Program-made: the position numbers and the translations under genes
NCBI RefSeq assembly: GCF_910592395.1
Contig: NC_088325.1
Coordinates: forward strand, 310,001 to 374,000
DNA length: 64,000 nt
Source: Lineus longissimus
Taxonomy: Eukaryota; Nemertea; Pilidiophora; Heteronemertea; Lineidae
Reading direction: 5' to 3'
Notes under the pieces: model-generated
Told to the model about the DNA's origin: nothing
Database searches by the model: none
What the model saw: only the letters and a program-made list of their open reading frames with translations
Shown: piece by piece, positions 6,589 through 48,649 of the stretch
Numbering within the stretch: the stretch's first letter is position 1
Layout of the letters: each line of letters starts with the position of its first letter

Positions 6589-7602
6589 CTATTGATTGAT
6601 ATAACCACCTTTCTTACTAATTACAGAGATCAGCCTATCATCCATTCCAGAAGTGACTTTTTCTATCTCAGCTGACGAAAAGCTCTTCGCTGCTTCTTGA
6701 AGATCCTTCCAGAGAGTCTCTTTCGATGAATATTGCCTGCCATTTGCATATAACCTTCTTTTCAGTGGCGACCAGAAGTTTTCTATCGGATTGAGGTCTG
6801 GTGAGGACGCAGGCCAGTCCATCAAAGTGCCGTCTTTGAACCCCTGAGCAGCTAGCCAGCCCACCGAGTACTTGGACGCGTGTGACGGTGCATTATCTTG
6901 CATGAACATCAGCTTTTTTCTGGTTGCAGCAGGTTGTCGCTTGATACATGGAAGAAAATGCCGATTGAGAAATTCACAATAATTCTGCGAATTCATCTTC
7001 ACACCATCATCGACCTTGAAGGGTCCAATCAAGCGATCCTTTTGAAGAGCAGCCCATATCATGATGCCTCCTCCTCCTTGCTGGCGTTTGAACCTCACCG
7101 GGGCAGCTTCACCTTCCATCAGCCAGCCTCTGGCCCAGCTATCAGGTCCATCAAGGGTTGCGCGCATCTCGTCGGACCAGATCACCTTGCTAAAATCCTG
7201 TTTCAGGTACTTTTTACACCACTCAATGCGTTTTTCCTTGTGTCTCTTGTTCAGAGGGCGCCTCGTTTTCACTTTCACCACTTTTCCGAAGATCCTGAGG
7301 GCACGACACCTTGTTGACCTTGAAACATGTGGCAGTCTAGCCGCTTGAAATATTTGAGTGCTTGTACTAATTGGCTTTCTGGACATTTCTCTCTTCACAG
7401 CTGCCAAGTCACCACCAGACAACACCCTCCTGGATGGTTTATTGACTCTTGTTCGGACATGTTGGCTGTCATTCACGAACTTTTTCACTGCCCTATGGTC
7501 ACGATGAATAATCTTGGAAATTTCGAGTGAAGAGCATCCTTCCGCCAAACACTTGACAATTTTCGCCTTCTCTGTACTGTCTAGGTCCCTTTTCCTACCC
7601 AT
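6589..7602 (-). CDS. Tc1-like DD37E transposase (337 aa)
   Basis: Cut-and-paste transposase acting in the nucleus on the flanking inverted repeats. The start at 7602 gives MGRKRDLDSTEK, a typical Tc1 N-terminus. A helix-turn-helix region covers about residues 1-110 and is followed by a basic GRPR-like stretch (TRRPLNKRHK) and the DDE catalytic domain. The acidic residues visible are D144 (IWSDEMR), D236 (FMQDNAPSH) and E274 (SSPDLNPIENFW). There are 37 residues between the second D and the E; classical Tc1 has 34, so this is a DD37E enzyme. A glycine-rich motif (GGGGIMIWAAL) lies between the first two acids, as in the family. There is no frameshift or internal stop, so the protein could be functional. 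Confidence 0.92.
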   Translation of the reverse strand: MGRKRDLDSTEKAKIVKCLAEGCSSLEISKIIHRDHRAVKKFVNDSQHVRTRVNKPSRRVLSGGDLAAVKREMSRKPISTSTQIFQAARLPHVSRSTRCRALRIFGKVVKVKTRRPLNKRHKEKRIEWCKKYLKQDFSKVIWSDEMRATLDGPDSWARGWLMEGEAAPVRFKRQQGGGGIMIWAALQKDRLIGPFKVDDGVKMNSQNYCEFLNRHFLPCIKRQPAATRKKLMFMQDNAPSHASKYSVGWLAAQGFKDGTLMDWPASSPDLNPIENFWSPLKRRLYANGRQYSSKETLWKDLQEAAKSFSSAEIEKVTSGMDDRLISVISKKGGYINQ

Positions 7603-7654
7603 AGTGAGGCCTAGACTTAGTAAATGGCCAGTATACACTGCCAAATGTCCCTGA

Positions 7655-7864
7655 GCCCTTACTTGCATAATAGTGGGGGCACATCCATTATACAATCTTT
7701 CCTCAATTTCTATTGTGGTTATTATCCAAGGAGCATTTTATGGCATGAATAATGAATGTATATGGTCAATGAATCATATGGTATGCATTGTTAAAATATA
7801 ATCCCAATCAATTGCAGGAATTCGCAAAATATAGGCAATGCATAATAGTGTGACACGCAGTGTA
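7655..7864 (-). repeat. Right terminal inverted repeat of the Tc1-like element
   Basis: Reverse complement of the left arm, with the outer repeat ending near 7864 and the inner direct repeat at about 7664-7676. The inner repeat lies upstream of the transposase start chosen here (7602). That is why the longer frame beginning at 7695 was not taken as the true start: its first codons are made of TIR sequence. Confidence 0.85.
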
Positions 7865-16191: not shown

Positions 16192-33234
<17,043 letters not shown>

Positions 33235-37300: not shown

Positions 37301-40300
37301 GAGAAGAAGAGGAAGAGAAAGCGACAAGGTATGAGTTGATGAGAGTGGTATAAATTGAGGGTGTATAGTCTGATGTCAACAATGGCATCCACCGAATTTG
37401 CACGTTATTCACACTTTAACTCTGGTCTAACCTGAAACCATTCAGTAGAACTCGGAGGAGCTGCTCAATCAGCAATACAATCTGAGCATTTTTGACTTGT
37501 ATCCATTTATACACCTGGGTGGGGCGTGGCATGTCAGTCAAAGTCTCATCCCGACTGTGGGATTGAATGAGGCCCCTCTTGACAGCCGGCCTAAAGACTT
37601 GAGTCACTCTGCCAAAGTGACACAAGATTTCATGCCTGGCTGGTGGTCTTGGTTGATAGTAAGCAACCTTATTTAAAAACCAGAAGGCAGCAGGAGTCAG
37701 CGGTCCAATGCACCACGTCTCATCAAAATATGATTCTAAGAGCTGTTTCATCAAGTTAAAAATATTTTGATTTGTTTTGATTGCAGAATCTGATGACAGT
37801 GATGACAGTGATGAGGATGCTGCATTCAGTGATGAGAGTGATGAACAAGTTGCTGCCCCGCCTAGAAAGAAAAAGAAAGGAAAGTCGAATCAACCTAAGT
37901 TTGAAAATTTGAAGGAAAATACGGGAAATGATCTCGATGTTGATGATATGTCGCAAAAACAAGATTCAAATTCAAAGCAAAGTAAGAAAAACAAGGGAAA
38001 GAAAGGTTTGGAATCCAAAGGGGATACAACATTGAAAAGAAAGGGTAAGAGAGGAGCAGACGGTCAAGAGGGAAAATCTAAGGAAGGAGAGGATTCCACA
38101 CAAGTTGTGGGCGGTAAAAGTTTGAAGGGAGGAGAAGGGGTGATGTCAAAAACTGATGAGATACGTGGGAAAGATTCTGTTAAGAAGAAGAAGAAAAATA
38201 AGGAGAATTCTGGTGAGGTGAATCAAGCGATTGTTCCGCATCAGTTTACTGTCGGAGAAAAGAAAGCTTTAAATGCGGAGTTCAATCAATTTGAACAAAA
38301 AGTTGCGCAATTATCGGAGGAGAGGAGTGGTACTGAGAAAGCTGGAAAGTTGAAGAAAAAACGACGTAAGTCTTGCGGGGATGCGCTGGGTACTTTGATT
38401 CTGAGTAAGAAAGAGAAAAATGATGGTGATCTTGTGGGTCAAGATGAAACTGGGAATGACATTGGTGATCATACTGAAGTAGAGAAAGTTTCCTTGAAGG
38501 CTAAGTCAAAAAAACGGAGAAGTTTGGGTTCACTGATGTCTGAAATGTCCAAGACGGCCGAGTCGTCTGCTCCGGATGCAAATGAGCCTGTGTATTCAAA
38601 GATTAAGAAAAGGCTGAGTGGTGGACAGTCTGATGCTGCCTTGAAGGTCAAGGTCGCAAGCCCTGGGAGTTCAAAGGTCAAGGTCGTGACACCTGGAAGT
38701 TCGAAAAAGAGTTCTGCACAAGTGAGTGCGTATGCTAAGATGATGGAAAAGCGTCGTGAGGAACTGGTATCGGATACGCCATCTAGTGGTATGAACAAAA
38801 ATCGAAAGCATGTAAACTTTGATTCTGAATGCAAAACACCTATTCCTTCGAGTCCGAAAAGTCCGGCAATGTCCAGTCCGTCTGTGAAGGCTGACGTATT
38901 GACTCCTGTTCCAAAGTCCTCAAAGAAATGGGAGAAAACAAGACTGGATACGCCTGCTAGATCTGCGAGTCTGAAAAAGAAACAGAAGAAAACAAGCCCG
39001 GTGCATGAATTTGACTTCTTGACGCCTACCAACAGTGGAAAGAAGAAGAAATTGACCGGGACACCAGTGGGGCCATCTAGTAGTAAGAAAGGGAAAACTC
39101 AACTGACGAATATTGCGGAAGAAAATCCGGAGCCAGCGTCGGCGAAGATTGAGAAGAATTTGTTTGCTGCGTTTGAGAAGGTCAAGACTCCACCTGCCGT
39201 GTTTGTGAAGAAAGCTGTAACCAAGGTGACACCCAAGGTCACGCCCAAGGCCAAGCAGAATGAGGTGAGTGTTCCTTTAATATTGTTTTAAAGGAGTAGG
39301 CAGATTATTGCTTCAATATGTTTGTTCTTCTCCTGTTTCATTACCATAGTCTTTTGTGGCTCAATAACGGTAAAGAAGGGAAGGTACCTTTCTAAATTGA
39401 TTTTAATCATGATTGTTACATAACTTATTAAGATTTGAAAAGTCCATTTTTAGCTTTACAGCATGTGTTGATATTATTGATCAACTCAAGATTACCCAAA
39501 CACAGGGCGTTCCAACTACCGTACTATAACAGCTCATTGGGGCATCAATCGGAATAGTCTGAATGAGGGTTTTAACGTGCCACTATGGTTAGGTGCCAAT
39601 TGGGTTTATTGACCTTATGACTCTGTCTTTGGCCAGAGGGAGAGCCCAATGCAAGCTACTCATGTTTCTCACTTGGTGGGTGTTTTTCTCGGACCAGGTA
39701 CGAATCTCTGTTCTATGTCTCATTCAAAGGACTTTGAAGAGCCAGGAATTTTAGTTCCTGGGAAGTCACCCAGTTCATCCAGACATACATTCCTGGGTTA
39801 GAGGCCATGGAGGCATGGTAGCCAGCAAGCTTGTAACTACTAGGCTATGAGGCTCCTCAAGGGTAATGGTAAAATGTCTGTTCCTGATGCTTCAGCCAAG
39901 TCTATGACTGGGAAGTCTGATGGAATCACTACATTATCATTCACATCTTCAGGGGGTTCCCTTTGGAGTTCCTCTCGATAGCGTTCACCAACATGAGCCT
40001 TCATATGTGCTGCCACCTTGTGACATTTGACTGCATTGATATCGACCCCTTCGAGGAGGTTGATCTTGGGCATCCAAAACATCGGGATGAACCCATGAGA
40101 CAGATAGTACTCCAGATGAGAGTACAGAATGTACGCCATCTCAACAAGTGGTCGCTCATGGTTGCGGAAGTCCTCCACATTGTGCATGAAGACGGTCTTG
40201 AGGAAGTAACTGGTGATAAATTCACCGACAAAGTGTACCACACCTTCGTCTCTGACCACCACCTGACACACCACTGGGCTCCGGAGACATTTCGTCAAGA

Positions 40301-43300
40301 TGTAGGCATCCTTGACCCTGTCCTCAAGACCCTTGAAGTGCTTTACCTCAAGTAGGGAGAATGTGATCCGATACAGTCGCTCGCGTTCGGCTCCATGAAA
40401 GCTTTGACCAAACGAGCTATTCTTGTGTGGAGGCCTGGCTACAAGCTGGTACCCATGTGCTTTCAACTCTTCTGAATTCATCATCCAGGTGCTTTGAATC
40501 GCATTGCTCGGCCAGTCAGCGAAATGAAGTACTGGGACGAGGTCGACGGACACCATTAGGCCCTGCCGTCTATTTTCTTCATCCTGGTATCGCATTTTGA
40601 TGCAAGTGCAAGCAGCACCATCACCAGCTACACCTGTCGGCATTGAGGTCAGCGTGTCATCTTTAGGTTTAAGGTACACCCAGGTATCGGTGTGGAAAGT
40701 CTTACTACTATTCATGTGACATTTGTCACTGTCGTACCTTTTGTAACCATGCCCAACATCAACAAGTCCGTCTGGGGCAAAAGTCTCAGTATCTTGTAAT
40801 ATGATATCAAATTCATCAGGGAATCCCACTTTCGTTGATTCCGCCATACTTCCTATTTCCTTCGTTGTCATCAAGTAGCGTTCCTTTGTTTTTTCTGTAA
40901 TCCTCGTCACGTTGTCAAGAATTGTTCGCTTCAAGTTGCTTCGTATATCAAGCGGTAGACTTCGAATGGAGCCGAGGCCAGGGAAGTCAACCAAACTTGT
41001 GGTTGGGATCTTCTCTCTGTTTGCAGTCACTGAAGTTTGTACTCGAGGTGAAAGAGCATTCTTGAAGATGTCCCAATCAATTCTGCTACTACAATATAGA
41101 TAGTCATGTGCCTTGTAACCGCTGGTGTCCACCGCATCTAGGTCCACCCCTGCAACCAAGAGATACAGGTGAATATCCACTGATCCACATTCTGTGAGAC
41201 AGTTCATGAGTCTGTCACGTCCTATGGAGTGGGGTGTTGCCCCTAATGAGTGAAGCAATCTGACACATTCAAAATGTCCGTGAGAAATAGCTGCTGCCAT
41301 GGAAGACAGAAGTTCCTCCTGAAACGATTGAAATCGTTTGAACAATCCCGCCATAAAGGTGATAACATCTTTTTTGCCATATTTTGCAGCAAATGTCAAT
41401 TTGCCCATCAGATTTCTGACCTGGTCTTCATCAGTGATGCTTGTCAGTAAATATTTGACGAGGTCCACCTGGCCGTGTATGATACTATTTTCCAACGGTG
41501 AAAACCCATCCACGTCGTTGCTGTGGCAGTCTGCACCATTTTGGATCAAGAATTCAAAAACATCGACTTTGCCTAAAGTAGCCGTGTGGTTTAAGGGAGA
41601 TTGCCCCCGGTCGTTCTTACTCTCGATGTCGGCCCCCCGCTCAAGTAATATACGCATCACATCTAACTTTCCAAAGTATGCGGCACCATGAATTGGGGTC
41701 CATTCTGTAACGTTCTTAGACTCGATCTGCGCACCTCTATCTAGTAGAAGTTTGACAACGTTTACGTGTCCGTTGACAGCCGCCATTGCAAGAGGACTGA
41801 AACCCTGGACTTGTTGGGTGTCGATCTTTGCACCTCTGTCTAATAAAAGTCTAACGACATTCTCATGCCCATGATGCGCTGCCATGGATAGAGGTGTGTC
41901 CCCCCGGTACGAGTAGGCCTCAATGTCTGCACCTCTATCTAATAGAAGTTGAACAATCGTCTCGTGTCCATATCGCGATGCTAATAAAAGTGGAGAGCGT
42001 TGCTCATTTGTCTTTGTCTCAATATCTGCACCTCCGTCCAGTAAAAGTTTGATGACGTTCTCATGTCCGTTTTGTGATGCAAAGTGAATCGGAGACCAAT
42101 CTCGCTTTTCCTTTGCTGAAATATCTCCACCCTGATCTAACAAAAGACCAACCACCACCTCATGTCCGTGTTTTGAGGCTATTGTAAGAGGAGAAAGACC
42201 AAGGTTTGTCTTGGCCTCAATATCAGCTCCTTTAGTCAGCAGTTGGCTCACAATACGACCATGTCCACTTTGTGATGCCAAATGAAGCAGAGACCAGTTT
42301 TTGTTTCCCTTTGTTTCAACATTTGCACCCTGTTCTAAAAGCTGTTCTACAACATCAGCTTGTTCTTTCTCAATGGCGATGATCAAGGCATGTCCTTCTA
42401 TTGCGTCCATCAATCTACGATCGTCGAATCCCTTTTCTCGGCTGTCGGCTCCGTCCTCAGCCGACGGACCCTGCGGAGCACAGCCATGTCCATCCACCCT
42501 CGCAGTATATCTTGCGCTGGTGCCAGCGTCCTCCGTGACTGAAAAATAGAATAAATGTTATGACAATCCAAGGAGAAAGGCTGTGAGGTCTTGATTGCCC
42601 TTGAAGGGTCATCAGGTCAAGGTCAAGGTTAGTTTGTCAATATTACGGGCCATTTAGTATCAAAACTAGCAGATTTTCTCCAAATCTGATGTATGTTTTG
42701 GAGTTATTCAATATCAATAGAATGTCAACTTTTTTTGTGTCACCCAGTACTATGTTTCTAATTACCTTTCAACCTCTTCGGTGGGGTACAACCACTAGTG
42801 GAGGGCTCCGCCAAAGGTGGTTGATGTGGATCTTCAGTCCTGCATGAAGTTTGCTGGGCTGGCAGTACTGACGATGCATCATGCTTCCTTGTACCCCTCT
42901 TTGGTGGGGTACAACCACTAGTGGAGGGCTCCGCCAAAGGTGGTTGATCTGGATCTTCAGTCCTGCATGAAGTTTGCTGGGCTGGCAGTACTGACGATGC
43001 ATCATGCTTCCTTGGTGGACGGGTGCTTCCCCCAAGTTCATCCATTATCTGTCATCAAAACAAGATCAGGAAAGTGAGCCATCTATGGTAAAGTCGGAAA
43101 ATTCAGATTATGACACAAAACGCCTCATAATCACGCGTGTTCTCCACAAGGCCATTTGTCAGTTTGTCCCACCCTACCTTGGAGCAGCCACCCAACCTTG
43201 CTCTAGAATCTTGTCAATAGTTTCTACAGGGCCACCCTACCCTCCCTCTTGTGAAGTGTTCTCTGTGTTATACATGCAGCCTGCATTTATACATGCTTCC

Positions 43301-46089
43301 CGAAATTGGTGGCTTGCATTGGAACTAACTTTTTCCCCCTTGTATGTCATTAAAGGCATTCAAGTGTGTTGGTCAACCATGACTATCTCCTTTGTCCCTC
43401 CACCATAAGGCCTAGTTTCCCCTTATGACATCACTATTTCGGACACTCAGCGCCCCATTTCTGGAAAGGTGTATACATCACACGAAAGTGCTTAAAAGTA
43501 AAAATCTCCATAAATATTCATGCTGGGAGCTTACCACTGACTTTCTTCTTTATGTGAACAGTAGAAGTGCATCGAATGCTGGAAGGTCCTGTGCCCGAGA
43601 TAAGCCTGAATAAAGCAGAGACATTGCCATGAAATTTTCACTCCATGAAACCTTTTTTATCTGTGAGGGGAATTTCCACTTTCACAGCATTCTCATTAGT
43701 AAAATCCTTAAAACTTGTCCATCTCATCTTCTGAACTGACTTGGTGGATGTTCCCCTTGAAGTCTTCTCTCCGATTGAAAAACTGTCTGGTATCCTACAC
43801 TGTTATCAAAGATACTGGTATGAAATCAATAAAAGCACATTTTCACGCTCCCCAATACCATCAATTTGGGCCTTTATCTGAACAGATGGTTAAGGTTACA
43901 CCCACTGCTTGGCCTGGATGTAAAGTATAAGTATTGCCATGAAGTCTCCATGCCGGGAATCCATTACGGGGAATTCCCACTCTGCATCAGTATTAGGTCC
44001 AATCACTAGCTGATGCTGCCTCCATTAAGTACTGGTTGAACTAATACAGGGTGATCAAAAAAATGTCTACGATATCCCGTATCGCCAAAGTAGAGAGACA
44101 TATAGAAAATCAATGAATATATTATGTTGCTGGTTCGGGTGGGGGTACTAGCTGGTCAGAGTTCAAATAAAACTTGAAGACATGAATAACTTACTAAACT
44201 ATATTGTTCCTTCACCATATACACATCTACACAATCATAGGTCACACAGTTTCACAGTTTGGAAGTCCAAAACCGGTAGTGTTCTTCTCAGGCTGGAGTC
44301 CAGGACCTGAATGCCCACACATAAAATATAGATTCACCAAGAAAATTGGTTTCTAACAACACAGAAAACTTAATGACATAATTACAGCAACAAGCTAGGA
44401 CAGATGGCTTACCAATTAATTATAAGACAAGGGTGGCACAAATTACAAGGTGATTTGTCCACATAGCGTTAATCCCAGAATAAAGGATGTCTCTTAACCA
44501 TGAATGGGTTGTCGCCTAAATGCTAAGCAAACTTACATAAAAGCAATGGTTAAGAAGCGCAACAGCTGTGGGCGTGTTTAATCCTAAGGGAGTTCCCAAA
44601 TTCAGAGTTTGTAGGACAACTAAAGTGAGAAATGGGAATTCTTCATAAAAATTGAAATAAATTATTAAACTTAATTTAAGATGAAAAGCCACCATAAAAA
44701 ATCTCTCCCCCTAAGGACAAACGGGAACAATAATCTCTTCTCTGTAAGATTTAAAATAAGACTACATGCTTGGCTTACCATGTGTTATACAGTAGAACCT
44801 CTCTATTAAGGACACCCTTGTGACAGACAAGTGCTGTCCTTAATAGAGAGGTGTCCGGATTACAGAGGTCATGTCAGTGAAGACAACCAATTTGGGACCA
44901 GACACAGATGTTCTTAATAGAGAGGGTGTAGGTAATAGAGATGTGTCGGATAAGGGAGGTTCCGTGGTGTTTATTTTAGTCGGAGGTATTCCAAGCATGA
45001 AGTGACCTGGTTGTAAAGTGGATGTATTTCCATGTAATGTCTTCTCAAGGCAATGGATAGGAATCCCCTATTTCAACATATCAACACCTACGATGCCTTG
45101 AGATTAACAAAACATCCTGCATGGTGCCCGCATATCGAAAATTTAAAAAATATTGCAAATTTAAAAAATATTGCATATTTAACAAATATCGCAAATTTAA
45201 CGAATATCGCAAATTTAACAAATTTAACAAATTTAACAAATATCGCAAATTAAAAATAATGATTTTTTTTTATAAAAATTAAAAATAATGAATTTTTTTT
45301 AATTAAAATTAAAAAATTATAAAAATGAATTTTTTATATAGAAATCTTTGCAAATTGCTACAATAAAAAGACGAGTGAATCCTACTGATTTCACCTTCTT
45401 TTCATTGTTGAGTCACGCTAAACGGTGCTGCCACCTCCTGGGAGAAAAAGAAGTCGAAGATGGCCTTCCAAAGTTTGAACCAGTCAGCACAGTCACCCTT
45501 GTCGTGTTATACCTTTAACCGACTTTTCATTGTTGAGTTGTTTACATTTCAGACACCGAAGAAAAAGTCTCCAAAAAGTGCCACATCCTCGGAGAAGAAG
45601 AAGAAATCAAAGAGAGTCAGCTTCATAATGGCAAGAAACATGGAACAAGGTTCGTTCGAAAGAGATTATCGGGAAAAGAGGCCTTTTTATTTTCCGGAGC
45701 AATTTTACCAAATGGGCGCAAGTAGAATATAGATGGAAAGGAGAATGCTTGTGACACCTTGGTCAACAGAGCTGAGGTGTTATTGGGATTGACATACCTT
45801 ATCAAGCTCATCCTATCACTGTTGTTCTTTAAAAAAAATGATTTATTTTCCAGATTTCAAGGACAGTCTCAACGTCAGTCCGGTACCACCGTTCGTCCCA
45901 GACAAAAGGCCGGAAAACAGTATCCTGAAATCACCAGCGGTCACTCCGAAACAGATGTTACGCGCGAAGCAGCTTCAACTACTGTTGAAAAACAAGACAC
46001 CAACAATGTCACCATTGGCAAAAAGTCCGAAATCAGTTCAGAGGATGATGCAGAAAAAAAACAAAAACAAAAAAAGGAGCAGTATATAA
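34309..46089 (+). CDS. RRP1: Ribosomal RNA processing protein 1 (RRP1/RRP1B, Nop52 family; nine exons, 928 aa)
   Basis: Nucleolar factor for 60S pre-ribosome maturation. Exons: 34309-34444, 34795-35021, 35422-35613, 36032-36096, 36420-36623, 37177-37328, 37787-39264, 45553-45649, 45854-46089, joining in frame to TAA. The Nop52 domain covers about residues 8-210, with QKLACNDRTVRDRGVKKLRK, DLVKIWKGLHYCMW and EWYGIDRLRIDKF matching the family. Exon 7 encodes an acidic SDDSDDSDED stretch and a long Lys/Ser-rich low-complexity tail. Exon 8 contains KRVSFIMARNM, aligned with the PP1-binding KVTF motif of human RRP1B, and exon 9 a conserved SILKSP element. A second RVxF-like motif (KHVNF) is at 38806-38820. 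Vertebrates have two paralogues, RRP1 and RRP1B; this looks like the single pre-duplication gene. Intron 7 (6.3 kb) contains an antisense gene. Confidence 0.93.
35255..35400 (-). repeat. Dispersed AGAACCTCTCTATTAAGGAC repeat, copy 1
   Basis: Located in RRP1 intron 2. It includes 'aacacctctctatcaaggac' followed by 'agcacttgtcagtcc' and 'gtccttactagagaggttctactg', that is, two inverted half-sites facing each other. Related copies are at 35640, 44789 and 46318. Confidence 0.7.
35640..35795 (-). repeat. Dispersed AGAACCTCTCTATTAAGGAC repeat, copy 2
   Basis: RRP1 intron 3, starting just after the exon 3 donor. Contains ggacacctctctattaagga, 'aacatttgtcagttcc' and 'aatagagaggttctactgcac'. The inverted half-sites could form a hairpin. 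Confidence 0.7.
36706..37065. repeat. 68-bp tandem repeat, about five copies, RRP1 intron 5
   Basis: The unit is built on gatcacatgaccagtggtcac, 'atgaccaggaaatcatgaaatgg' and aaacattgttttgtcattac. One copy lacks the first part. Each unit carries two or three copies of tcacatgacc. It is intronic and does not reach either splice site. Confidence 0.9.
39605..39610 (-). terminator. Polyadenylation signal candidate for the ankyrin-cGLR gene
   Basis: AATAAA on the minus strand (TTTATT on plus), 230 bp past the stop codon at 39840. If used, the antisense gene ends inside RRP1 intron 7, 340 bp from RRP1 exon 7. Confidence 0.4.
39840..43045 (-). CDS. Ankyrin-repeat cGAS-like receptor / Mab-21-domain protein (two coding exons, 992 aa)
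   Basis: Predicted cytosolic sensor-type nucleotidyltransferase. Coding exons are 42766-43045 and 39840-42538; the junction (AAAG|GTAATT ... TTTTTCAG|TCACGG) keeps the frame. An acceptor-like gatgacag just before the ATG suggests a further 5' UTR exon. Residues 12-93 are two copies of a 41-aa low-complexity repeat. About 138-577 hold ten clear ankyrin repeats (pattern TPL..AA..GH..VV.LLLDRGA) and two or three weak ones. About 627-950 match the Mab-21/cGAS fold: GSMAES...PDEFDIIL, then SVDLVPVLHFADWP, YRITFSLLE, SYFLKTVF and GFIPMFWMPKINL. The acidic triad is present (E669, D671, D759). No insertion resembling the mammalian cGAS zinc thumb is seen. It lies wholly inside RRP1 intron 7, antisense. 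Whether it makes a cyclic dinucleotide, and in response to what, is unknown. Confidence 0.85.
39963..40940 (-). other. cGAS-like/Mab-21 nucleotidyltransferase domain with intact acidic triad
   Basis: Region of the nested gene covering about residues 627-952. The GS loop is residues 656-657, followed by the E-F-D motif with E669 (codon 40812-40814) and D671, and the third acid D759 (40542-40544) in SVDLV. In human cGAS the equivalent positions (GS..., EFD, SVD) bind Mg and are required for activity; many Mab-21 proteins have lost them. The C-terminal half preserves the helical landmarks RxxFSxxE, K.L and SYxxKT. Activity is inferred from residue conservation only. Confidence 0.8.
41088..42407 (-). 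other. Ankyrin repeat region of the nested gene
   Basis: At least ten consecutive units of about 33 residues, such as GDTPLSMAAHHGHENVVRLL and EWTPIHGAAYFGKLDVMRIL, each ending in GA.IE. The last two or three units (near MAAAISHGHFECVRLLHSLG) are degenerate. Ankyrin stacks normally mediate protein or ligand binding, so this part is likely the sensing or scaffold module. Confidence 0.92.
42767..43012 (-). repeat. 123-bp in-frame duplication in exon 1 of the ankyrin-cGLR gene
   Basis: Two near-identical 123-bp copies (43012-42890 and 42889-42767) encode RKHDASSVLPAQQTSC... twice. They differ at a D/H position and in the last two codons. The second copy ends one base before the exon boundary at 42766, so this duplication also abuts a splice donor. 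Confidence 0.93.
43046..44788. other. RRP1 intron 7 upstream of the nested gene
   Basis: Presumed promoter and 5' UTR side of the antisense gene. Apart from the dispersed repeat at 43137 I see no coding exon with convincing splice signals and no TATA box at a credible position. Confidence 0.35.
43137..43290 (+). repeat. Dispersed repeat (GGCCATTTGTC family) in RRP1 intron 7
   Basis: Runs tctccacaaggccatttgtc, 'ccaccctaccttgg', 'gctctagaatcttgtcaatag', followed by 'gggccaccctaccctccctc'. It lies just upstream of the ankyrin-cGLR start and could overlap that gene's promoter or 5' UTR. Confidence 0.75.
44789..44965 (+). repeat. Dispersed AGAACCTCTCTATTAAGGAC repeat, copy 3
   Basis: Begins cagtagaacctctctattaa, followed by 'ggacacccttgtgacagacaagtgctgtccttaatagagagg'. 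The two halves are inverted relative to each other. A third partial copy of 'cttaatagagagg' follows at about 44912. Confidence 0.8.
45125..45345. repeat. AT-rich minisatellite, 18-bp unit
   Basis: Tandem variants of caaatttaaaaaatattg and caaatttaacaaatatcg, followed by a second AT-rich stretch with aaaattaaaaataatg. Simple-sequence intronic DNA upstream of RRP1 exon 8. Confidence 0.85.
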
Positions 46090-47528: not shown

Positions 47529-47639
47529 GCCAGTCATCACTCAAAGCTCCAAATTGACTGGCTCAAAGATTCATTTTTAGCGCCCGAGAAGATCAAAAGA
47601 GTGGTCTATATCGCTAGCCGTGCGAAATCACCTTTAATG

Positions 47640-48062
47640 TTGTTGTATGGCTTTATCTGGCTACGATTTGTGCATCGAGCATCTCTGCCTGACTGGTAGT
47701 GGTAGGCCTATATGTATGGCTTTATCTGGCTACGATCGGTGCATCGAGCATCTCTGCCTGACTGGTAGTGGTAGGCCTATATGTATGGCTTTATCTGGCT
47801 ACGATCGGTGCATCGAGCATCTCTGCCTGACTGGTAGTGGTAGGCCTATATGTATGGCTTTATCTGGCTACGATTTGTGCATCGAGCATCTCTGCCTGAC
47901 TGGTAGTGGTAGGCCTATCTGTATGGCTTCATCTGGCTACGATCGGTGCATCGAGCATCTCTGCCTGACTGGTAGTGGTAGGCCTATCTGCATGGCTTTA
48001 TCTGGCTACGATCGGTGCATCGAGCATCTCTGCCTGACTGGTAGTGGTAGGCCTATCTGCTC
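47640..48062 (+). repeat. 69-bp tandem repeat, six copies
   Basis: The unit begins atggctttatctggctacga and continues through a gtgcatcgagcatctctgcc segment. About 30 bp of it (ggctacgatcggtgcatcga...ctctgcctga) match the candidate exon at 47321-47431 in inverted orientation. Since 69 is divisible by three, the array is open for 149 codons (a MALSGYDRCIEHLCLTGSGR unit), but there is no evidence it is translated. Confidence 0.93.
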
Positions 48063-48649
48063 TGTCAGCCTGACAACCTCAGGAATCCAATGGTGAAAAC
48101 GTTGTAACTCGTGCTGTGGGAAGGCTCTACCGACAGGTAGCAGCTCATAAACAATTCCTCTTCTAACTTGACGTACAGGTTGTATTCCGTTTTTTGCGGT
48201 TTTAACTGCTGAGAATAGTTGTGCTGTGTATTGTAATGCCGAGTTGTTTTGGCTGGATGCTGTTTGAAAATGGCTGCACATTTTCATTTCTTCCACACTT
48301 GCTTACACTTAAACCCCATCTCGCAAACCCTGGGTTCAAGTGATGACTCATCTGAGTAACTTCTAGTGCATAGCATCACAATGCTTGACACATGTACTAT
48401 GAGAACCTCTCACTGTGGTGCTCAAGCAGGAAATGATGAGGGGACCTGTTGACCGCGACCTTCTGTATCCACGATTTGGGATTCACATGGGTTTTGACGT
48501 ACCATACTCCCTGGTGTAAGAGTCATCCAACGAACTGGTTGAAAGAGAGATTTCCAATCAATGAAATTTCTCCACATTCACATTATCAAGCTCAATGCGT
48601 AACTTGTGTTCCAAGAACAGATCTTGATTTAAAAAATTTTAAAATTTTA

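Follow-up and report, generated by a model that had tools for sequence, protein, structure and literature searches.

Can a cGAS/Mab-21-type nucleotidyltransferase that is fused to a long stack of ankyrin repeats act as a sensor, and if so, of what? The question is raised by a gene in a 64,000-nucleotide stretch of the genome of the nemertean Lineus longissimus (contig NC_088325.1, positions 310,001 to 374,000 of the forward strand; hereafter the window). The gene lies on the minus strand at window positions 43045-39840, has two exons and starts with an ATG at 43045; its 992-aa translation is identical throughout to P0001, an NCBI L. longissimus protein named ankyrin-3-like. An earlier reading of the letters alone (the original prediction) had proposed just this frame at these coordinates, and the exact gene model and the full identity to P0001 confirm it. 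On balance we favour the reading that the product is a catalytically competent cGAS-like receptor (cGLR) with an N-terminal ankyrin input, and that it belongs to a large nemertean family in which one nucleotidyltransferase engine would be joined to many ankyrin arrays.

The predicted order of domains, at least ten ankyrin repeats followed by a Mab-21/cGAS-type domain, was borne out by profile searches. Pfam ankyrin families matched the window protein (Ank_2, E 1.7e-109), with about 12 units counted by eye on the translation, and both Mab-21 (PF03281; E 1.1e-7, 32.5 bits against a curated cut-off of 24.1, profile positions 108-193 of 197 covered) and Mab-21_C (PF20266; E 6.6e-7, 29.9 bits against 24.1) scored above their curated cut-offs. 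Repeats and an intact cGLR core thus lie in one reading frame, as a fusion. Structure prediction of the full protein from five alignment rows gave ankyrin helix pairs at about residues 141-540, mostly with a high predicted local distance difference test score (pLDDT); across residues 555-944 pLDDT was <50, and this model is uninformative on the catalytic domain. Prediction of the domain by itself succeeded with 11 rows (the window protein plus partial sequences from 10 family proteins; of the 12 others, P0005 and P0010 were omitted), and the predicted structure resembles known cGLR/CD-NTase enzymes, as the original prediction had anticipated. The domain shares 16% identity with Crassostrea virginica Cv-cGLR1 (PDB 8gjw) in structural alignment. 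A profile of the wider family matched solved cGLR1 and cGAS over the whole domain, with MB21D2 far behind; among the 45 solved-structure sequences that it matched at E up to 1 there was no OAS or poly(A) polymerase. When the 905-aa stop-to-stop frame was compared with solved structures by phmmer, the best 60 of 537 matches were all, to judge from their names, ankyrin-type proteins, designed repeats, TRP channels or the like.

The Gly-Ser (GS) activation loop, the acids E669 and D671 and the third acid D759, all said to be retained, stand at the proposed positions and are conserved across the family (Table 1). Of the 41 distinct members over which conservation was counted, 37 are Lineus loci and four are proteins from elsewhere; the 46 domain rows contained four locus repeats, which left 42, and P0010 and L042 are also one locus. 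L035 begins past the GS loop, and its letter in the D671 column was left uncounted. That E669, D671 and D759 meet at the active site was judged by alignment and fold match. The gap from GS to the first acid is 11 residues, equal to that in the aligned cGAS chains, and Y871 occupies the position that we take to be that of the base-stacking tyrosine in the SYHVKT stretch of cGAS. P0013, with Gly in place of E669 (PDGIDY), is the sole E669 loss among the 40 readable members and, by its sequence, a candidate natural inactive form. Between its EVD and SID acids, L042 has a repetitive insert of about 200 aa or longer, which splits the nucleotidyltransferase domain; its motifs are otherwise intact. 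The zinc thumb of cGAS has the motif H-x5-CC-x6-C; none was seen when the window domain was read by eye, in keeping with the original prediction. A conserved KCLRxPxVC stretch (C844 in 36/40 and C851 in 38/39 members with a residue there) aligns near the zinc-thumb place of cGAS, and we rejected it as a disguised thumb, as it has neither the His nor the Cys pair. The Methods of Li et al. (2023, PMC9980059) define cGLRs by a G[S/G] activation loop and [E/D]h[E/D] X50-90 [E/D], while the Results are worded more strictly, as h[QT]GS. With GS at 656-657, EFD at 669-671, D759 and a gap of 87 residues between D671 and D759, the window protein is, as far as its sequence tells, a cGLR with an ankyrin stack in the Methods wording. 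A nucleotide-joining enzymatic step in this protein is likely.

The gene proved to be real, as claimed, and it is not solitary. A genome search with the window domain gave 91 matches, which became 73 loci when pieces on one strand and at most 3 kb apart were joined; the counts are lower bounds, so that the genome holds at least 73 related loci, and in 66 of them a frame runs for 700 aa or more without a stop. Three of the 73 have internal stops, and four more have a stop-free frame of <700 aa. Of the 73 loci, 39 are grouped on one strand in arrays that have 2 to 12 members, for example 12 on C17 and 8 on C12, and the window gene is the only family locus on C19. Pfam scans found ankyrins and Mab-21 in all 12 long family frames examined besides that of the window, and no ankyrin in a 520-aa piece of L035, in which a stop interrupts the frame. 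Precomputed Pfam lists add ankyrins in P0002-P0005, P0007, P0008, P0010 and P0013 (of these, P0004, P0007 and P0008 also belong to the twelve scanned); judging by frame length, the remaining long frames would carry them as well. Ankyrin-bearing relatives outside the Lineus records are P0006 (ENA) and P0009, P0011 and P0012 (JGI metagenomes); a domain-profile search of the protein database, in which the best 8000 candidates by shared words were scored, returned one protein, P0006. A midpoint-rooted tree of 48 rows (L035 and P0012 omitted, the P0010/L042 repeat included) split 40 ankyrin-cGLR rows, 39 of them distinct, from eight further Mab-21 proteins of Lineus at 98/100 support, although its bootstrap was unsettled and it drew long-branch warnings. 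In L030, L031, L033 and L035, three on C17 and one on C15, the catalytic domain is followed by a C-terminal tail built of repeated units similar to KDTRDPGTVPLETESTEVEGRDHARSCLGQT. Searches with the family profile for a viral or prokaryotic origin yielded 34 pattern matches in viral contigs and 157 in prokaryote genomes, none of them confirmed; their sensitivity was limited, and both negatives are weak evidence.

The two halves of the protein appear to change at different rates. In all eight pairs compared, the ankyrin part was less alike than the catalytic domain, with identities of 71.5 versus 94.3% for L030/L031 and 53.3 versus 66.0% for the window protein and P0002. The domains of L030, L031 and L033 are 93-96% identical, yet these proteins have 23, 4 and 10 Ank_2 stretches, respectively. 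Faster divergence of the ankyrin parts is suggested by these alignments, in which repeats can misregister, and the observation is suggestive only. For the catalytic domain, the ratio of nonsynonymous to synonymous substitution rates (dN/dS) was computed over 18 pairs: it was 0.39-0.81 in 12 recent pairs (dS <0.16) and 0.08-0.35 in five more diverged ones, and one pair gave no value.

What might such a protein detect? The original prediction had in mind double-stranded RNA or DNA (dsRNA, dsDNA). The window domain has an isoelectric point (pI) of 6.40 and the family a median of 6.46 (range 5.29-9.16; 42 rows, the P0010/L042 repeat included), while according to Li et al. (2023, PMC9980059) cGLRs that sense dsDNA or dsRNA have a pI >8.5, and other ligands are proposed there for acidic cGLRs; our values were computed with Biopython and theirs with a different calculator. 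Direct dsRNA or dsDNA sensing is less likely for the window protein because of this difference. Direct sensing of nucleic acid in the manner of cGAS or Drosophila cGLR1, with ankyrins that just localise the protein or hold partners, would fit the fold and pocket shared with cGAS and Cv-cGLR1; given the acidic domain and the missing zinc thumb, we regard it as unlikely. Our preferred ligand is a molecule other than a nucleic acid, recognised by the ankyrin repeats; it is more likely than dsRNA or dsDNA in naked form.

The original prediction had called for a search for STING in this genome, and STING-type exons were found. Searched exon by exon, STING_LBD was found on C11, C16 and C9, with E values of 3.7e-7 (L009), 2.9e-6 (L010), 1.6e-5 (L012) and 2.2e-5 (L013). 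L015 holds three STING exons in order on the same strand, covering profile positions 1-21, 20-68 and 99-160, and L012 together with its neighbours in frame passes the Pfam STING cut-off at 37.6 bits. Eight of the ten STING exon frames gave a match of some kind at E ≤1, and the other two gave none. The exons form small clusters, with L009, L011 and L015 on C11 near 2.02-2.05 Mb and L012 and L013 on C16 near 5.74 Mb; by eye, frames next to them could be TIR- or SEFIR-like.

Taken together, the idea of an active sensor stands in part: the cGAS-type fold, the family-wide conservation of the triad and other pocket residues, and the STING exons speak for it, while direct nucleic-acid sensing has become less likely. 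From these features we infer catalysis, product, ligand, direction of signalling and a role in immunity. In the mechanism that we propose, the ankyrin stack would bind a ligand, for which a protein or another non-nucleic-acid molecule is the likelier candidate, and this binding would free or order the activation loop. The E669/D671/D759 site would then join two nucleoside triphosphates into a cyclic dinucleotide, which would act on one of the worm's STING proteins. More tentatively, and with the chances somewhat against it, the family could form an NLR-like repertoire built from cGLRs, in which a constrained cyclic-nucleotide core and fast-changing ankyrin arrays would connect many non-nucleic-acid ligands to STING. 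If so, a large set of receptors would share cyclic-nucleotide signalling as its output. The dozens of natural ankyrin-cGLR variants, with near-identical domains on different arrays, would make the role of ankyrins in ligand choice directly testable, and the ligands of acidic or fused cGLRs are a question that the cGLR survey itself poses (PMC9980059).

Several observations weigh against a competent, ankyrin-gated cGLR that signals to STING. The residue before GS is Ile in the window protein, which at this one position deviates from the stricter h[QT]GS wording; among paralogs it is Cys in many and Thr in some (L016 QTGS, P0004 LTGG). The spacing between acids exceeds the published 50-90 in many paralogs. 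A five-row profile of the window protein's nearest relatives matched solved structures weakly (best E 0.0028), with cGAS at E 0.5 and worse and one luciferase among the matches, so the strong structure match depends on the wider family. The dN/dS values of the recent pairs may reflect relaxed constraint or diversifying change, and the faster change of the ankyrins may be ordinary repeat drift. A pI calculated for the domain alone is a weak guide to ligand type: four ordinary Lineus cGLR fragments have values of 8.43, 8.62, 6.35 and 6.69, two of the four not being basic. Finally, only two of the ten STING exon frames pass the Pfam cut-off by themselves (L009 at 30.1 bits, L010 at 27.2).

A domain that makes no messenger and serves as a protein scaffold would also explain a fusion of this kind, although we consider it decidedly improbable. 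Ankyrins are protein-binding modules, and the loss of E669 in P0013 suggests that single members may be scaffolds. D671, D759, E824 and Y871, in contrast, occur in every readable member, even though the profile alignment holds 20 further domains with identities to the window domain down to 25%; such retention is unexpected for a pure scaffold. The precedent comes from shrimp, whose Mab21 proteins are reported to enhance IKK-epsilon (PMC12928593). An active nucleotidyltransferase with a different product or substrate (a linear oligonucleotide, a modified protein or RNA) outside cGLR-STING signalling is less probable again: the Ile or Cys before GS and the large insertion of L042 would suit it, whereas the solved structures matched were cGAS and cGLRs, with OAS and poly(A) polymerase missing from the 45 sequences matched at E up to 1, and the genome has STING exons. 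A pseudogene or chance frame is ruled out, because the frame is stop-free and conserved, with four paralogs 54-68% identical in the domain and a domain dN/dS of 0.15-0.16 against two near copies.

The nesting of the gene antisense within an RRP1 intron, also part of the original prediction, is confirmed by Nop52/RRP1 exons on the plus strand. Earlier plus-strand exons of the host gene match Pfam Nop52/RRP1 (E 1.1e-7, 1.2e-35 and 1.2e-14), and the intron around the ankyrin-cGLR gene is 6,288 bp long and in phase 0, from an exon end at 39264 (AATGAG/GTGAGT) to a phase-matched exon start at 45553 (TTTCAG/ACACCG). The exons that flank it (37771-39264 and 45553 onward) gave no match in a Pfam scan; we assign them to the Nop52 gene by phase, strand and a presumed resemblance to RRP1. 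Within exon 1 of the nested gene, 42766-43009 (minus strand) is a 123-bp tandem duplication whose second unit has 121 bp inside the exon (114/121 identical), so that a Pro/Ser-rich segment of about 41 aa is encoded twice. Elsewhere in the window, exons at 24560-30051 (plus strand), upstream of the RRP1-like gene, match families of the DNA polymerase epsilon catalytic subunit (POL2_thumb, DUF1744). A Tc1/mariner-like stop-free frame of 382 aa at 6589-7737 (minus strand) contains a DDE_3 transposase domain and matches HTH_Tnp_Tc3_2 weakly. Two plus-strand stretches of tandem repeats, 32008-32590 and 47638-48096, are by eye probably non-coding; three frames are open in one of them, and the other has a unit of about 25 aa.

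Table 1. Features of the ankyrin-cGLR locus in window coordinates (slashes mark exon-intron boundaries; counts refer to distinct family members)
Feature	Position	Strand	Details
Exon 1	42766..43045	-	280 bp; start codon at 43045; P0001 residues 1-93 and first base of codon 94
Intron	42539..42765	-	227 bp; GT-AG; phase 1; AAAG/gtaatt ... tttttcag/TCACGG
Exon 2	39840..42538	-	includes stop; inside 905-aa stop-to-stop frame 39840-42557
Ankyrin repeat stack	41049..42410	-	about 12 units, approx. residues 137-590; Pfam Ank families, predicted helix pairs; ends by eye
cGAS/Mab-21 nucleotidyltransferase domain and C-terminal helix bundle	39975..41012	-	residues 603-948; Pfam, family-profile alignment, structure prediction and match
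Activation-loop Gly-Ser G656-S657	40848..40853	-	G in 40/40 readable members; then S in 35, G in 5
First two catalytic acids E669-F670-D671	40806..40814	-	E 39/40, D 40/40 readable; aligned to E-x-D of cGLR1 and cGAS
Third catalytic acid D759 (SVDLV)	40542..40544	-	D in 41/41
R817-I-T819-F-S-L-L-E824	40347..40370	-	aligned with cGAS WRLSFSHxE; R 37/41 (K in 4), S or T 41/41, E 41/41
S870-Y871	40206..40211	-	aligned with S-Y of cGAS SYHVKT; S 39/40, Y 40/40 members with a residue there
Host intron, RRP1-like (Nop52) gene	39265..45552	+	ankyrin-cGLR gene antisense within

How does this gene compare with known systems? Mammalian cGAS differs from the window protein, which has no zinc thumb by eye, is not basic and carries an N-terminal ankyrin stack. 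Cv-cGLR1, assayed with dsDNA and dsRNA ligands in the survey (PMC9980059), shares only the 16% identity given above, and its deposited chain has 355 residues; the acidic pI of the window domain is a further difference. The Mab-21 and Mab-21_C pair is shared with Mab21L1/2, whose human forms have complete putative active sites according to the text of Li et al. and no predicted functional active site according to a legend (PMC9980059). The Mab21L-type protein L001 of the same genome lacks, by reading, the GS loop and the third Asp, which the window gene has. Fusion of ankyrins to a cGLR is in itself a published architecture, reported by Li et al. (2023, PMC9980059) for animals including the coral Stylophora pistillata. 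A nemertean radiation of this size is another matter: neither nemertean cGLRs nor an ankyrin-cGLR radiation was met among the papers listed in the literature searches, and the word nemertea is absent from the main text of PMC9980059, whose supplementary tables could list Lineus proteins. By the same source, 87% of cGLRs have no added domain, and the coral has three fused ones (ankyrin or death domain) among 42. Compared by description only, the published ankyrin-cGLRs (PMC9980059) resemble the window protein in joining a cGLR core with its catalytic motif to ankyrins and in coming from an animal that has several cGLRs and several STINGs; the difference is one of scale, a minor architecture there as against 66 long-frame loci in Lineus.

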